Positions 10,385-32,299 of a stretch of DNA of 64,000 bases are shown here, in pieces. A program made the translations under genes and the position numbers. The stretch spans positions 1 through 64,000 of IMG/VR virus record IMGVR_UViG_3300042465_007929; one strand, given 5' to 3'. The notes beneath the pieces were generated by a model that saw nothing but the letters and a program-made list of their open reading frames with translations, was not told the DNA's origin and ran no database searches. The stretch comes from a virus. How positions within the stretch are numbered: the stretch's first letter is position 1; every line of letters begins with the position of its first letter.

Positions 10385-11281
10385 ATGTCAATAGATCTTG
10401 GAAATACCCCAGTAGGAACACCGCCGAATCCAACACAGCAAGAACAAATTCGTCTGGCGTTGGACGCTATTACTGATGCTCCTAGTGATGGTGAAAAGTA
10501 TGTGATGCAGGATGGACAATGGGTCTATCTGACTCCTCCGCCAAACAGAGCATATGACATTGATAACATTGTTCTTTTTGAAGAAGCAAGTGACATTATT
10601 CCAAATAATTGGACGAATACTAATCCCGTAGCAGTCGCTAGTGTTGACTTTAAATCAACTCTGACCAGTATCGGAGATGAGGCGTTCTATAGCTGCTCTG
10701 CCCTGACGAGCGTGACGATCCCTAACAGCGTGACCAGCATCGGGGATGATGTGTTCAATAGCTGCTCTGGTTTGACGAGCTTAACCATCGGCAACGGCGT
10801 AACAACTATTGGTAGTGTAAATACAGCATATTCTGGTGCGTTCTATTTATGCACAAGCCTAACGAGCGTGACGATTCCTGACAGCGTCACAAGTCTCGGT
10901 AGTTATTCATTTTATGGCTGTTACGATTTAGTAAGCGTCGTGCTTGGAAATGGATTGACAACTATTAACAACGGTACGTTCCAGTACTGCTCCAGTCTGA
11001 CGAGCATCACGATCCCCAACAGCGTCACCAGCATAGGCAATTATGCGTTCCAAGCCTGCACTGTCTTGACGAGCGTGACGATCCCCAACAGCGTAACTAG
11101 CATCGGACTAAATGCGTTTGCATACAGCGGCCTAACAAGTATCTCTTGCTTGGCAACTACCGCACCAACAATCGGAACTGATGCTTTTTTAAATGTTCTG
11201 GCAACTGAGATTCACGTTCCATTTGGAGCCACTGGATACGGCACAACATATGGTGGCTTGACAGTAATTGCTAATCTTTAA
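10385..11281 (+). CDS. BspA-type leucine-rich-repeat protein, copy 1
   Basis: The 298-aa product has an N-terminal module (about 1-50, starting MSIDLGNTPVGTPP) shared with the next two genes. A DxxxxIIPNNWT linker follows, then 23-residue LRR_5 repeats of the type LTSVTIPNSVTSIGDYAF. A conserved C-terminal cap contains TEIHVPFGATGYGTTYGGLT. No signal peptide or membrane segment is present, so it fits a virion-attached binding protein better than a secreted one. The repeat region looks richer in G+C than the flanks. Function is inferred as host-surface or polymer binding. Confidence 0.8.
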   Translation: MSIDLGNTPVGTPPNPTQQEQIRLALDAITDAPSDGEKYVMQDGQWVYLTPPPNRAYDIDNIVLFEEASDIIPNNWTNTNPVAVASVDFKSTLTSIGDEAFYSCSALTSVTIPNSVTSIGDDVFNSCSGLTSLTIGNGVTTIGSVNTAYSGAFYLCTSLTSVTIPDSVTSLGSYSFYGCYDLVSVVLGNGLTTINNGTFQYCSSLTSITIPNSVTSIGNYAFQACTVLTSVTIPNSVTSIGLNAFAYSGLTSISCLATTAPTIGTDAFLNVLATEIHVPFGATGYGTTYGGLTVIANL

Positions 11282-11310
11282 CACATACAACAATTTTTAA
11301 TTAATTTATT

Positions 11311-12252
11311 ATGGCAATCGATTTAGGAAATACTCCAATAGGAACACCACCCACAACAGGACAAAAGCAACAGATGCGTCAAGCTCTAGTTGCAGTTGGT
11401 AATGCTCCTATTGATGATGAAAAGTATGTTATGTTAGATGGAGAATGGGTCTTCTTGATTCCTAATCAGGCATATGATATTAATAATGTTGTTCTTGTAG
11501 AAGAAACTAGTAATATAATTCCCGACAGTTGGACCAGTGATTATGCTGCTGATGTTACTAGTATACGTTTAATTCCTACATTAACAAGCATCGGAAGTTA
11601 TGCGTTTCAGTCCTGCATTGGCCTGACAAGCGTGACCCTTCCAAACAGCCTTACCAGCATCGGGAGTAATGCGTTCAACTACTGCATCAGCCTGACGAGC
11701 ATAACGATCCCCAATAGCGTCACTAGCATCGGGAGTGATGCGTTTAGTTACTGCGGTCTAACAAGTATCACTGTACCCGCTAGCGTAACTAGCATTGGGA
11801 GTACAGCGTTTGGATACAACCCCAGCCTAACAAGCGCAATTATTAATAATGGCGTTCCATATATTTCCGACGAAATGTTCGGAGGTTGTGGTAACTTAAC
11901 GAGTGTCACTATACCCAACAGCGTCACCTACATCGGAGATTATTCGTTCGGAGGCTGTGGTAGCTTGACGAGTGTGACGATACCAGCCAGTGTAACTATT
12001 CTCAGGTCACAGGCGTTCAAAAGCTGCACTGGCCTGACGAGCGTGACGATCCCTAACAGCGTCACTAGCATCGGACTAGATGCGTTCCAAAACTGCGCCA
12101 GTCTAAGCAGTATCTCTTGCTTGGCAACTACCGCACCAACAATCGGAACTGATGCTTTCTTTGGCGTTTTGGCAACTGAGATTCATGTCCCAATTGGAGC
12201 CACTGGATATGGAACAACGTATGGAGGACTAACAGTCATCGCAGATCTTTGA
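11311..12252 (+). CDS. BspA-type leucine-rich-repeat protein, copy 2
   Basis: The 313-aa product has the same three-part plan as its neighbours: shared N-terminal module (MAIDLGNTPIGTPP), LRR_5 repeats of about 23 residues, and the C-terminal cap. Repeat number and some repeat sequences differ from copy 1, including a non-consensus unit around ISDEMFGGCGNLTS. It is a tandem duplicate that has diverged by repeat gain, loss or exchange. Confidence 0.8.
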   Translation: MAIDLGNTPIGTPPTTGQKQQMRQALVAVGNAPIDDEKYVMLDGEWVFLIPNQAYDINNVVLVEETSNIIPDSWTSDYAADVTSIRLIPTLTSIGSYAFQSCIGLTSVTLPNSLTSIGSNAFNYCISLTSITIPNSVTSIGSDAFSYCGLTSITVPASVTSIGSTAFGYNPSLTSAIINNGVPYISDEMFGGCGNLTSVTIPNSVTYIGDYSFGGCGSLTSVTIPASVTILRSQAFKSCTGLTSVTIPNSVTSIGLDAFQNCASLSSISCLATTAPTIGTDAFFGVLATEIHVPIGATGYGTTYGGLTVIADL

Positions 12253-13633: not shown

Positions 13634-14431
13634 ATGAATAAAAAAATACATTTTGTTAGCGGTCTTCCTCGTGCGTGTTCTACATTAGTCTGCAATCTTC
13701 TGGCTCAAAATCCAGAAGTTCATGCCACAGCGACTAGTCCTCTTCATGAGATTGGATATATCGCTAGAAAGGTATTCCAGACTGAAGAAGCTAAAGCAAT
13801 CGGCGGCAAGACTTTAGAGAAGATGTATTTTGATTATGTTCGCGGAGGTTGTTCTCACGCATTTGATTCGCTCACTGATCGTCCAATCGTCGCAGATAAA
13901 TGTCGTTCTTATATCGGTCATCTAGATCAACTATTTCAGATTTGGCCAGACGCAAAAGTAATCGTACCAGTGCGAGATGTGAGAGGTATCATTTGCTCCA
14001 TGGAAAAGATTCGCCGCAAACATCCTTCTCCGTTTAATGGCTTCGAAGAAGCAAACCCAGCGAACTTTACGACTATCGAGAAGCGAGTTCAAGGTTGGTT
14101 ATCTTCAGCCCCAGTCGGTATCGCCATCGAAAGACTTCATGAGGCAGTTACTCGCTTCAAAGATCGTTTACATTTTGTGAATGCCGATAAACTTACAGCA
14201 TCGCCTGATAAGGAAATGGCTAAAGTTTGGAGCTACTTAGGTCTAAACTTTAATGATCATGATTTCGAAAACGTCGAGCAATATACTGAAGAATATGATG
14301 TAGGATGGCCATATGGCGACCACAATATCAGATCAACTATTCGCCCACTTGAATTAGACTACAACGAAATTCTAGGAAAACAACTATCAACAACACTCAA
14401 AGAGAAATTTAACTGGATCAACACACTATGA
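13634..14431 (+). CDS. Sulfotransferase-family protein
   Basis: The 265-aa protein has the two PAPS-binding signatures of sulfotransferases: a 5'-phosphosulfate loop, SGLPRACSTLV (about 9-19), and a 3'-phosphate motif, VPVRDVRGIICSMEKI (about 114-129). It should move sulfate from PAPS to a hydroxyl or amine; phage members have no well-defined acceptor. It lies between the LRR genes and another plus-strand gene with 4-nt overlap. Together with the glycosyltransferases elsewhere here, it suggests modification of surface glycans or of a virion protein. Confidence 0.82.
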   Translation: MNKKIHFVSGLPRACSTLVCNLLAQNPEVHATATSPLHEIGYIARKVFQTEEAKAIGGKTLEKMYFDYVRGGCSHAFDSLTDRPIVADKCRSYIGHLDQLFQIWPDAKVIVPVRDVRGIICSMEKIRRKHPSPFNGFEEANPANFTTIEKRVQGWLSSAPVGIAIERLHEAVTRFKDRLHFVNADKLTASPDKEMAKVWSYLGLNFNDHDFENVEQYTEEYDVGWPYGDHNIRSTIRPLELDYNEILGKQLSTTLKEKFNWINTL

Positions 14432-14938: not shown

Positions 14939-15595
14939 TCAGAGCAAGGTATAAGATTTGATGAAAATTATACATTTTTCAAGAAAAATCGGAAAATCAT
15001 TTCTTTTTTTATGATTTAAATCTTTAGATGAAATTCTCATTATATTCCAACCATTTTTTATTAAATTTGAATCTCTAATAGTATCTTTTGTTTTATCATG
15101 CCATTTTATACCATCATATTCTATATTTATTTTGTAATCTGGTAAAGCTATATCCAGATAAATATTATCGACTTTATATTCTTGTTGTAATTCTGGAAAT
15201 GTTTTCTTTAATTCTTCAAATAAGACATTTTGCCAATAAGATTTTTTGCCAGCACATTTTCTATTTGGATGCTTTTCAGGATTTAATTTAAAAAATTCTT
15301 TTTTTGATAAAGACATTTTTAATTTACTTTCATCGCTTCTTTTTGAACCAAGATTTTTTAAAGATAAAGATTTTTTTCTTTCAAGAGTCCAACCTTCTTT
15401 AAGTTTTTGCTTTCTATCTTCAGTACAAGGCAAAGTTTTTTTACCTTTCATTGGAGATATTCTGCCAGTTGCTTTTTGACTTCTTATCAAATTGATTTCT
15501 TCAGTCCAAATTCTTGAATTAGCGCAAGATCTGGAACAAAAAACACCACTACCAAATGTTCCATCATGATCTATATTACATTTTTTGCATTGCAT
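14939..15595 (-). CDS. Homing endonuclease, zinc finger plus VSR/EDxHD-like nuclease (218 aa)
   Basis: The N-terminus has a short treble-clef-like finger (CKKCN and CSRSCANS). A basic linker with repeated KK/SLK elements follows, then a nuclease-like C-terminus with DIALPDYKINIEYDGIKWH, NLIKNGWNIMRIS and a Lys/Arg tail. This is the layout of VSR-like PD-(D/E)XK or EDxHD phage homing endonucleases. It lies at the edge of the tRNA array, between the sulfotransferase cluster and tRNA-Gly. A related enzyme sits at 16580-17284. Confidence 0.7.
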   Translation of the reverse strand: MQCKKCNIDHDGTFGSGVFCSRSCANSRIWTEEINLIRSQKATGRISPMKGKKTLPCTEDRKQKLKEGWTLERKKSLSLKNLGSKRSDESKLKMSLSKKEFFKLNPEKHPNRKCAGKKSYWQNVLFEELKKTFPELQQEYKVDNIYLDIALPDYKINIEYDGIKWHDKTKDTIRDSNLIKNGWNIMRISSKDLNHKKRNDFPIFLEKCIIFIKSYTLL

Positions 15596-15637: not shown

Positions 15638-15712
15638 TGGTGCGTTATGTGGTAGTCGAAACCACGCTACTAGAGTGGAAGTCTAGTGTGCTACCGTAAC
15701 ACTTATAACGCA
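15638..15712 (-). tRNA. tRNA-Gly, anticodon TCC
   Basis: Acceptor TGCGTTA pairs with TAACGCA, the anticodon loop is CTTCCAC and the T-arm has GTGGT/ACCAC around TTCGACT. The CCA end is encoded. It reads GGA and probably GGG. Confidence 0.9.
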
Positions 15713-15716
15713 AAAT

Positions 15717-15785
15717 TGGTGGATGTTGGGGAATTGAACCCCGTCCGCAATAGTAAACTATTACGTCGAATCCCTATGGACACCC
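15717..15785 (-). ncRNA. Minimal tmRNA-like RNA: tRNA-like domain without a message domain
   Basis: The 69-nt RNA carries the two signatures of bacterial tmRNA: GGATTCGACG near the 5' end (15764-15773) and GGACGGGGTTCAATTCCCC leading to the 3' end. The acceptor begins GGGTGT and ends ACATCC-A-CCA. It keeps G1-C72, G2-C71 and a G3-U70 wobble, the identity element for alanyl-tRNA synthetase, with discriminator A and encoded CCA. It has no D-stem, as in tmRNA. Where tmRNA has helix 2 and roughly 300 nt of tag frame and pseudoknots, this RNA has only a hairpin (CGTAATAGT with ACTATTGCG). It follows a protein gene's stop by 1 nt and precedes tRNA-Gly. Confidence 0.65.
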
Positions 15786-15786
15786 A

Positions 15787-16579: not shown

Positions 16580-17284
16580 ATGAATGTATTATACACTGAG
16601 CTAGATTTTTCTCAAGCTAAATTAAGTGATAAATTAAAATTAAAGTGTTTAACGTGTAATGGTATTTTTTTAAAAAAGAAAAAATATATTATAGATATAA
16701 TAAATCGAGGAGGTCATTTTACTAAAGCTGGAACTGGAGATTTTTGCTCTCATAAATGCTCTTCTTTTTCAAAAGTAAAAGCAAAAGAATGTTCTTGTGT
16801 GAATTGTAATAAATCTTTTATTAAAAAACAAAGTCAAATTAAAAAAACTTCAAATCATTTCTGTTCTAGTTCTTGTGCCGCTTCTTATAATAATAAGAAT
16901 AAAACTCATGGAACTAGAAGATCTAAATTAGAAACTTGGTTAGAAGAAAAACTTACTAATCTTTATCCAAATTTAGAAATACATTTTAATCGTAAAGATA
17001 CAATTAATTCTGAATTAGACATTTATATACCATCTTTTAAATTGGCTGTAGAACTCAATGGAATTTTTCACTATGAACCAATACATGGGATAGAAAAATT
17101 AGAGAAAATACAAAATAATGATGAAAGAAAATTTCAAGCCTGTTTAGAACGAGGTATAGAATTTTGTATTATAGATACTTCTGGTCAAAAGTATTTTAAA
17201 GAATCAACATCTCAGAAATTTTTAAATATTATCTGTGATATAATAAAATCAAAAGAAATGAAGGCGGTGTCAGATTCGAACTGA
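16580..17284 (+). CDS. Homing endonuclease, multiple zinc fingers plus VSR-like nuclease (234 aa)
   Basis: Residues about 20-110 hold paired CxxC/CxxxC fingers (CLTCNGIF, CSHKCSS, CVNCNKSF, CSSSCAAS). The C-terminal part has ELDIYIPSFKLAVELNGIFH then ERKFQACLERGIEFCIID, matching the VSR/EDxHD-type nuclease plan seen in the enzyme at 14939-15595. It is the only plus-strand gene among minus-strand tRNAs. Its final codons (MKAVSDSN, stop) read into the 3' end of the tRNA-Ser gene on the other strand, showing insertion right at the tRNA. Confidence 0.72.
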   Translation: MNVLYTELDFSQAKLSDKLKLKCLTCNGIFLKKKKYIIDIINRGGHFTKAGTGDFCSHKCSSFSKVKAKECSCVNCNKSFIKKQSQIKKTSNHFCSSSCAASYNNKNKTHGTRRSKLETWLEEKLTNLYPNLEIHFNRKDTINSELDIYIPSFKLAVELNGIFHYEPIHGIEKLEKIQNNDERKFQACLERGIEFCIIDTSGQKYFKESTSQKFLNIICDIIKSKEMKAVSDSN

Positions 17285-17505: not shown

Positions 17506-17580
17506 TGGTAGTCCGTCTGGGTTTCGATCCCAGTCTCTCTCACTTATAAGGCAAGTGCATTCCCATCCTGCTCACGGACA
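17506..17580 (-). tRNA. tRNA-Ile, anticodon TAT
   Basis: The anticodon loop CTTATAA closes on CTTGC/GTGAG, the T-arm is CTGGG/CCCAG around ATCGAAA, and CCA is encoded. It would read AUA, a codon common in this AT-rich genome. Confidence 0.85.
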
Positions 17581-21103: not shown

Positions 21104-21178
21104 TGGCGAGCAGGCGGGAATCTAACCCGCGATCTTTAGCCTATGGGTCTAACGCTTTATACACTAAGCTACTGCTCC
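21104..21178 (-). tRNA. tRNA with anticodon CAT (second copy type)
   Basis: The T-arm is GCGGG/CCCGC around TTAGATT, the centre of the anticodon loop CCCATAG is CAT, and CCA is encoded. The acceptor has six clear pairs (GAGCAG/CTGCTC) plus an unpaired 5' G. An unpaired position 1 is an initiator feature, but the loop has C at position 33, so Met type is unsure. Confidence 0.78.
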
Positions 21179-21518: not shown

Positions 21519-22082
21519 TTACAAAAACTTTTCCCACTCTTTTCTGATACTTGGAACATGAAGGAAAACGCTAGGAATACTAGGCGCTTTCACGATTTCA
21601 TTTTTTACATTATAGTAAGGAGTATGACTAGCCTTTTTTTGATTACATTGAAGACAGGCAAGAGTCCTATTATCATGTTCATCTGTGCCGCCTTTACTTT
21701 TTGGCTTGATATGATCAATAGTAAGATCTGCAACACTAAACTTCTCTAAGCAATATTGGCAAGTAGAATTATAAATTTTAGCTAATTCAACTAGAGAAAA
21801 CCTTTTCTTCTTTGGTCTTTTGAAAAATCTGCTAGTAACAACAATTACTGTTGGAATTGGCCATGATTTCTTTGCACTGCGAAGAACTGGTTGATCTCCA
21901 TAGAATTCAGCATTAGTATTCCACTTATCTACAGAATCAAATAAATTATAATTCTTATCTAGCGCCGAAATATTACCACTTAATAGATGCGCGAAAGCTG
22001 CTTTTGCTGTGATAGCAGTAACAGGTTGCCACGCATTATTAAGAAGAAGAGTTGTTTTAGTGTTGCAGTCTACGATATTCAT
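21519..22082 (-). CDS. HNH endonuclease (187 aa)
   Basis: Residues about 108-155 form an HNH core: CQYCLEKF, then LTIDHIKPKSKGGTDEHDNR, then CLQCNQKKA, with the Cys pairs binding zinc and the DH/H/N residues catalytic. The N-terminal 90 residues (LLNNAWQPVTAITAKAA) resemble the fixed N-terminus of stand-alone HNH proteins often found in bacteria and phages. It overlaps thyX by 4 nt. Its role may be homing, or DNA processing in packaging. Confidence 0.82.
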   Translation of the reverse strand: MNIVDCNTKTTLLLNNAWQPVTAITAKAAFAHLLSGNISALDKNYNLFDSVDKWNTNAEFYGDQPVLRSAKKSWPIPTVIVVTSRFFKRPKKKRFSLVELAKIYNSTCQYCLEKFSVADLTIDHIKPKSKGGTDEHDNRTLACLQCNQKKASHTPYYNVKNEIVKAPSIPSVFLHVPSIRKEWEKFL

Positions 22083-24294: not shown

Positions 24295-25071
24295 TTAAGA
24301 ACAAGAAGAAATCAAACTTGCTTCATCATCTCTTCTGGTGAGAAGACCATCAAGCCCTTTACCAATCCAGAGTCTTTTCATCTTTTTAATTTCATTAGCG
24401 ATAGCTTCGTAATCTTTTGAAGGAATTAAATTGCGAATATTTAACATTTCTACTCTGCTAGCGCCAGAAACTGATCCTCCTCTGTTGAAGACAAGACTAA
24501 CTAATGCCCCAAAAGCATCTGGATGAAGGTTCTCTGAATTTGGAAATGCTCTTTTAGTTTCATTTATGAATCTTGGCAAAGTATTATTTTTAAAAACAAC
24601 TTCTGCTGACTCCCAAGGAATTTGAATATCTTTCACACTTGGAATAGCAGCTTTTGCACTTGAGCTTTTCTTACCAAGATGAAGGGCTAAACGAGCATAA
24701 GATGCTGCGTCAAGAACACTTTTCCAATCTGTCGCAAATTGTAAGGCAGTATTATAACCCATGTCATAACCAATGCCAATTGTAACTCCACTTTCTCCTC
24801 CGGGATACGAAGGATGTTTTAAACACTTATTATAATATCCAGCACCGCCGCCAACTTCGTATTCAAGAATAAGTTTATAAGCTTTATCTGATAATTGATT
24901 TTGAGAATTTCCTAATGACGGAAGAATAACTTCTGTATTTGAATTACTGATTTCTGGAATAATTTTAGCGATAATCGCCTTCCATGTATTTGGTCCATCA
25001 ATACCATCTGCATCTAAATTCAAAGCTTTTTGAACCTTGCTTACTAAGTTTTTTTTATTTGAAAATTCCAT
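24295..25071 (-). CDS. Endolysin: peptidoglycan-binding domain plus lysozyme-like domain (258 aa)
   Basis: Residues about 8-38 form a small peptidoglycan-binding motif (VQKALNLDADGIDGPNTWKA). After a Ser/Asn linker, the catalytic part starts at about 62. It has LILEYEVGG with a candidate catalytic Glu, SGVTIGIGYDMGYN, and FGALVSLVFNRG, as in the T4-lysozyme/pesticin family. There is no signal peptide, so a holin is expected; the candidate at 31688-32023 lies nearby. It degrades host peptidoglycan at lysis. Confidence 0.82.
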   Translation of the reverse strand: MEFSNKKNLVSKVQKALNLDADGIDGPNTWKAIIAKIIPEISNSNTEVILPSLGNSQNQLSDKAYKLILEYEVGGGAGYYNKCLKHPSYPGGESGVTIGIGYDMGYNTALQFATDWKSVLDAASYARLALHLGKKSSSAKAAIPSVKDIQIPWESAEVVFKNNTLPRFINETKRAFPNSENLHPDAFGALVSLVFNRGGSVSGASRVEMLNIRNLIPSKDYEAIANEIKKMKRLWIGKGLDGLLTRRDDEASLISSCS

Positions 25072-32101: not shown

Positions 32102-32299
32102 TTACTTTTTTAATTCAAATTTAAATACGGTTTCTGGAGAGACTGGATCTTCTGATATATCGACCTTATCAACTCTCCCATTGACTCTATTAGCGCAATC
32201 ACAAGCCCATTTAAAACCCTGCTCATTGATTGAGCTGTACGATTGTGTATAATTATTTTTATAATCATATACGCGATAAATGATATTTTTATTAGTCAT
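32102..32299 (-). CDS. Small hypothetical protein (65 aa)
   Basis: A short basic/aromatic product (MTNKNIIYRVYDYKNNYTQ and following) with WACDCANRVNGRVD. No family recognised. Confidence 0.55.
   Translation of the reverse strand: MTNKNIIYRVYDYKNNYTQSYSSINEQGFKWACDCANRVNGRVDKVDISEDPVSPETVFKFELKK

Follow-up and report, generated by a model that had tools for sequence, protein, structure and literature searches.

Is a 69-nt RNA gene in the DNA of a phage a tmRNA reduced to its tRNA-like domain (TLD), and, if so, what could such an RNA do without a message of its own? Almost all bacteria carry out trans-translation, which is also a drug target. The gene lies in a 64,000-nucleotide stretch of viral DNA (hereafter, the window) that is part of a 139,990-base record, whose phage origin is attested by the phage proteins it encodes.

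Anatomy and Identity of the RNA

The minus strand of 15717–15785 reads GGGTGTCCATAGGGATTCGACGTAATAGTTTACTATTGCGGACGGGGTTCAATTCCCCAACATCCACCA (RNA nucleotide n corresponds to window position 15786 – n), and its elements are collected in Table 1. The pair G3-U70, A73 and an encoded CCA are all present, together with a D-loop lacking a D-stem, the GG..UUCGAC motif and GGAC before the T-arm. An initial annotation, made from the letters alone, had relied on these TLD hallmarks and on the 5' signature GGATTCGACG, which is likewise there. Its proposal of a tmRNA cut to the TLD agrees with the Rfam model RF00023 (374 positions), which aligned with the window RNA from end to end (model 1–374, 42.1 bits, E = 1.1e-16) and found no second match in the whole record. 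A gathering-threshold Rfam scan misses this RNA, because 42.1 bits falls below the gathering score of 47 bits.

Table 1. Elements of the mini-tmRNA locus (window coordinates)
Feature	Position	Strand	Basis
mini-tmRNA gene (TLD-only tmRNA), 69 nt	15717..15785	(-)	RF00023 42.1 bits, sequence, homologues
Acceptor stem, 5' strand GGGUGUC; G3 at 15783	15779..15785	(-)	pairs with AACAUCC; family covariation at positions 4–7
D-loop region without D-stem, CAUAGGGA-UUCGA (G18 G19 type)	15766..15778	(-)	tmRNA-type D-loop motif; 18-55 covariation
P2 hairpin CGUAAUAG-UUUA-CUAUUGCG, nt 21–40	15746..15765	(-)	fold; P2 covariation in 68 clusters
T-arm GGGG-UUCAAUU-CCCC, with the 4-bp stem characteristic of the window subfamily	15728..15742	(-)	
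Acceptor 3' strand AACAUCC, A73, encoded CCA; U70 at 15723	15717..15727	(-)	sequence
tRNA-Gly(UCC), 5 nt downstream of the mini-tmRNA	15638..15711	(-)	ARAGORN; same order in closest relative

The features required for trans-translation (tag reading frame, resume codon and pseudoknots) are missing, and the 20-nt P2 hairpin takes their place; the 5' half is encoded first, then the hairpin and then the 3' half, so that both TLD halves are joined without a message. The initial annotation was right that one hairpin replaces the tag frame and pseudoknots, but its length of 9 bp has to be corrected: a further pair would close a loop of only 2 nt, so the hairpin realistically has 8 bp and a UUUA loop. 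The predicted fold comprises the acceptor stem, the P2-type hairpin and the T-arm (z-score –2.1 versus shuffles). The acceptor pairs are G1-C72, G2-C71, G3-U70, U4-A69, G5-C68 and U6-A67, followed by a C7-A66 mismatch. This mismatch and the T-stem of 4 bp, both previously overlooked, imply an acceptor/T stack of about 11 bp in place of the canonical 12 bp (7 + 5).

Other identities fared worse. ARAGORN called eight tRNAs within the window, none at this locus, and the Rfam tRNA model likewise called neighbors and not the window RNA, which has no cloverleaf with D-stem and anticodon arm; an ordinary tRNA with a missed anticodon, an alternative that had been raised from the start, was thus rejected. 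(Two further tRNA genes, at 17509–17580 and 21106–21178, were called by Rfam and missed by ARAGORN.) The possibility that the message domain is encoded elsewhere, as in a two-piece tmRNA, was rejected too: no such piece and no alpha-type permuted tmRNA was found in the 140-kb record, where a single tRNA-Arg was the only such gene detected beyond the window, and the permuted model RF01849 matched in none of six records. The case for the absence of a message domain from the record is strong, not absolute, because the record, classified as linear, may lack part of the genome. No SmpB gene was found in the 140-kb record either. Chance assembly is ruled out because homologues exist, one of them syntenic in the closest relative. 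Overall, the sequence supports the identification of the window RNA as a tmRNA reduced to its TLD.

Relation to Known Forms

The initial annotation implied that such an RNA was without precedent, but a TLD-only tmRNA has been published for the mycobacteriophage DS6A (Mao et al. 2009), as related in PMC4131195 and PMC11915505. Like the window RNA, it is phage-encoded and comprises little beyond the tmRNA TLD. The two phages are unrelated, and DS6A is a single case, whereas the RNAs described here form a large family, some members of which have a 4-bp T-stem or an A18-G55 elbow. In E. coli, tmRNA is reported to be strongly inhibited by a DS6A-like RNA, regardless of whether that RNA can be charged, perhaps through titration of SmpB (PMC4131195, PMC11915505). 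No phage TLD-only tmRNA besides that of DS6A was named in the non-subscription papers that we searched.

Reduction to the TLD is also known from organelles (PMC11915505): the mitochondria of jakobids have tmRNAs without the mRNA-like region (MLR) (Jacob et al. 2004), and the plastids of Mallomonadaceae have CDS-less tmRNAs of about 65 bp. By their descriptions, these organellar forms replace the organelle's own tmRNA, whereas the phage form is added to a host expected to own tmRNA and SmpB. Full-length phage tmRNAs, both one-piece and permuted two-piece, are known as well, for example in Melnitz (PMC9004378). They share the TLD with the mini form and occur in virion relatives of the window phage, but they include a tag sequence and measure about 300–460 nt in these relatives, as against 62–91 nt and no tag. 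A laboratory construct, the T. thermophilus TLD with a UUCG loop (PDB 2CZJ), is cited in PMC3929946; it has the same design as the mini-tmRNA, 5' and 3' halves with a short loop-capped connection, except that it is engineered and not natural. The kind of RNA studied here is therefore already in print, from one phage and some organelles, and the window RNA is a further member. In the non-subscription literature searched, we found no mention of how broad the family is, of its universal charging signal or elbow variants, or of mini and full-length tmRNA existing side by side.

A Widespread Family of Phage mini-tmRNAs

That related phages might carry the same short form, as suggested initially, was borne out. 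A first motif scan (TTCGAC, 10–40 nt, a T-arm and CACCA) covered 2.9 million viral contigs and demanded neither a GGG start nor U70. With the window RNA and loci found earlier, it yielded at least 124 pattern matches, at least 56 of which had six or more of the seven acceptor pairs correctly placed; many of the remainder were tRNAs whose anticodon arm contains TTCGAC. G1-C72, G2-C71, G3-U70 and A73 occurred in 56 of the 56 matches listed, a constancy that the scan did not impose, and in the same matches acceptor pairs 4–7 took many combinations, with compensation.

In stricter and longer-gap scans, the genuine mini-tmRNAs formed a discrete size class of 62–91 nt among the matches listed; filter-passing matches longer than 100 nt resembled neighboring tRNAs or were isolated, and nothing genuine appeared up to about 120 nt among the matches listed. 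A last scan, without any T-loop requirement and with its matches listed in full, completed a merged total of at least 111 distinct RNAs (62–91 nt), defined by pattern scans and acceptor-pairing tests, on at least 172 viral contigs. The presence of G3-U70 in 111 of 111 members of this merged set is not independent evidence, because a GGG start had served as a filter. With the tightest comparable pattern, 84,980 prokaryote genomes gave 3 matches, versus 43 of the viral loci fetched; two of the three had proper acceptor pairing, and the contig of one of these carries a terminase, i.e., is phage.

RF00023 spanned positions 1–374 in all 50 family records tested, with 42 above the gathering score. 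ARAGORN, on which a 2021-era survey of phage tmRNAs relied (PMC9004378), called only 7 of the 111 loci in any form, and T-loop variants scored below search thresholds, which exposes a gap in annotation. Long-class members (e.g., L024, L047, L097 and L131) have a P2 of about 29–41 nt, often with an internal loop rich in A and an inner element of the type RCC..AAGUG.

Five cultured Streptomyces phages (LuckySocke, GiJojo, Alone3, pSt2308 and BRock) carry a mini-tmRNA, and none of the five records annotates an RNA gene at that place. RF00023 scores were above gathering in LuckySocke (57 bits) and pSt2308 (61 bits). In these two complete genomes CCA is not encoded in the mini-tmRNA, and neither a full-length tmRNA nor SmpB (0 of 2) was found. 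The TTCGAC motif varies in Alone3 and BRock (CACGAC and TTTTGAC, respectively), with GGG...TCC still kept. LuckySocke grows on S. lividans JI 1326 and hence offers a laboratory system. What had been a curiosity of DS6A thus becomes a family that occupies at least 172 viral contigs and extends to Streptomyces phages in culture, in which it can now be tested directly whether a phage RNA disables or rewires ribosome rescue.

Selection on Stems and Elbow

Covariation was assessed in 68 clusters (<88% identity), by shuffling pairing partners among sequences. The outer six pairs of P2 were formed at 5.53 of 6, versus 3.22 upon shuffling (maximum 3.62 in 2000 shuffles); the corresponding values were 5.0 of 5 versus 3.39 for the T-stem and 3.96 of 4 versus 2.42 for acceptor pairs 4–7. 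Clustering removes relatedness incompletely, but the margin over the shuffles is very large despite this residue. The T-stem has 5 bp in 64 of the 68 clusters.

The elbow covaries as well: U55 accompanies a D-loop GG in 69 clusters, and G55 accompanies AG in 5. Two more clusters with G55 have the ambiguous reading TAGG, and the combination of AG and U55 was never seen among the clusters (Fisher p = 1e-6, uncorrected for phylogeny). C56 is retained. This covariation indicates that a tRNA-like elbow is maintained, in a G18-U55 and an A18-G55 form.

Genomic Context and Coexistence with Full-Length tmRNA

Among the matches listed, the first scans found the 4-bp T-stem in the window RNA and in L001, L145, L156 and L192, and the last scan added L424 to this branch. 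The closest relative found (L269/L371) has a virion gene 88% identical to that of the window phage and carries its mini-tmRNA at the syntenic place, directly upstream of tRNA-Gly(UCC). In this homologue the acceptor is wholly recoded with compensation, G3-U70 is kept and the elbow is A18-G55; RF00023 missed this copy at E 1e-9. In the window, the mini-tmRNA and tRNA-Gly(UCC) are probably co-transcribed. Genes for homing or HNH-type endonucleases (14939–15595, 16580–17284 and 21519–22082) surround the tRNA/mini-tmRNA region and are a possible route for mobilizing these RNA genes. The window phage also encodes BspA-type leucine-rich-repeat proteins and a sulfotransferase-like protein (10385–12252 and 13634–14431).

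In the family at large, no tRNA was called within 1 kb at 88 of the 111 loci, so that the mini-tmRNA is no mere supplement to a tRNA array; at the other 23, the nearest tRNA invariably shares the strand of the mini-tmRNA. No neighbor gene is common to the family, only lineage-specific phage genes, and SmpB was found in none of 50 family records.

Of 49 records, 46 of them obtained by way of the virion protein and three more being those of L145, L156 and L192, nine contain a full-length tmRNA. Two records of the family hold both forms. The record of L145 has a full-length tmRNA at 24318–24622, with the tag GKNNVVDSGLALAA (ending in LALAA), and the mini-tmRNA at 32194–32262. The acceptor of this full-length tmRNA (L352 and L361), GGGCACG/CGTGTCC, closely matches the GGGCACT/GGTGTCC of its own mini-tmRNA, a similarity that hints at a common origin or co-evolution of the two RNAs. 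The record of L029 has a 392-nt full-length tmRNA (L267:789–1180) beside the mini form. The likely tag frame of this RNA ends in ...RVALSV, not the usual LAA-type degron; ARAGORN proposes another frame (SPEYRIRLLTNTKW).

Possible Function

Since an RNA of the DS6A type is known and a similar RNA inhibits tmRNA, interference with host trans-translation is our leading explanation: the alanine-charged mini-tmRNA would occupy host SmpB and stalled ribosomes and leave nascent chains untagged, a model to which we assign a probability of about 0.5. Decoy, competitor and tagless-release functions had all been suggested initially from the anatomy of the RNA, and the competitor reading gains outside support from the published inhibition. 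According to this model, the mini-tmRNA would be transcribed (in the window, just upstream of tRNA-Gly) and its ends trimmed as in a tRNA; host alanyl-tRNA synthetase would charge it by way of G3-U70, A73 and CCA, and host SmpB and EF-Tu-GTP would bind it through the elbow formed by D-loop, UUCGAC and T-arm. In favor of the model, TLD-SmpB passes for an entire tRNA at the ribosome and yields polyalanine in vitro (PMC3929946). Host SmpB must serve, given that none was found in the searched records. The RNA would then compete with host tmRNA for SmpB and stalled ribosomes; a ribosome accepting it would gain an alanine and find no resume codon, so that the chain would not be tagged for proteolysis. 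The net effect would be suppression of ssrA tagging during infection.

One point against the model is that passive titration of SmpB would need no alanine identity, yet this identity is invariant, so that something beyond titration is selected. The reported inhibition was independent of chargeability, yet the alanine pair never varies; we take this to mean that the RNA works at the ribosome in its charged state. Further observations speak against the model. The presence of mini and full-length tmRNA together in two records is odd if the goal is to turn trans-translation off; blocking rescue could hurt some phages, such as lambda-immP22, which needs host ribosome rescue (PMC2862035); and the 11-bp acceptor/T stack of the window RNA may weaken its use by EF-Tu.

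The main rival, which we consider unlikely, is rescue without a tag. The alanyl-mini-tmRNA, with host SmpB, would enter the stalled ribosome and accept the chain, after which the peptidyl-Ala-mini-tmRNA would drop off or be hydrolysed; ribosomes would be freed and their products left unmarked, to the benefit of the phage when mRNAs are degraded during infection. The invariant charging determinants and the maintained elbow and P2 are consistent with this, as are reports that phage growth can need ribosome rescue and alanine charging and not tag proteolysis (PMC2862035) and that the MLR-less mitochondrial tmRNA is thought to be still helpful (PMC11915505). However, no known step frees a peptidyl-TLD without a message, and a TLD-only RNA inhibited tmRNA in E. 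coli.

The mini-tmRNA might instead be a decoy for some other host protein that recognises tRNA or tmRNA, for example a ribonuclease or sensor involved in defence, or it might sequester AlaRS or EF-Tu. CoCoNuT systems have predicted SmpB-like OB folds (PMC11090510), the helices evolve fast (as between the window phage and its closest relative), and most loci have no tRNA nearby; but the tight retention of the SmpB-type D-loop, elbow and alanine identity points to the normal tmRNA partners and makes this reading improbable. Template-free alanine tailing, in which repeated cycles of Ala-mini-tmRNA-SmpB would put polyalanine on stalled chains, seems very unlikely. TLD-SmpB does make polyalanine without a template (cited in PMC3929946), but this happens in vitro only and no benefit to a phage is known. 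Phages often integrate in ssrA and most of these RNAs are not called by ARAGORN, yet a relic (a decaying tmRNA, or an ssrA 3'-end copy left as an attachment site) is scarcely credible, as both TLD halves are present, all stems show compensatory changes and the syntenic homologue has a recoded acceptor; as a general explanation it is refuted by the invariance of G3-U70 and the covariation of stems and elbow, and an att site or pseudogene is ruled out by covariation and by the discrete size class among the matches listed.

Returning to interference, a stripped-down form found in at least 111 RNAs and almost always unannotated is probably a common viral tool against, or short-cutting, the host rescue of stalled ribosomes. 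We see an even chance that these RNAs constitute a largely overlooked, widespread phage family that is alanine-charged and acts at the ribosome, as a dedicated antagonist or a tag-free bypass of host trans-translation, with structural variants of its own such as the A18-G55 elbow and the 11-bp stack, and sometimes beside the phage's full-length tmRNA.

Other T-Arm Elements

Several matches proved to be something else. L002 fits the pattern, but it is isolated, GC-rich and devoid of acceptor pairing. The matches in Xanthomonas phages Rb1 and XacN1, Acinetobacter phage BUCT628 and Alcaligenes phage QDWS595 (L463, L464, L465 and L467, respectively) are ordinary permuted two-piece tmRNA genes, with no RNA gene annotated at the match. 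Among the blastn matches in known phages that were confined to the T-arm, H14 is a tRNA-Phe gene, and H19, H30 and H31, from jumbo phages, are other T-arm elements.

Corynebacterium phage PSonyx (OR521085; L268:1484–1527) has an unannotated 44-nt minihelix made of an acceptor stem, a T-arm and ACCA, without TTCGAC. The gene for an RtcB-like RNA ligase lies about 40 nt downstream of it. The jumbo phages Serratia BF, Erwinia Kaldavass and Xanthomonas XbC2 (L005, L006 and L007) contain repeated, unannotated T-arm elements (GGTTCRATTCC), uncalled by ARAGORN and Rfam, that sit inside a flanking inverted repeat.
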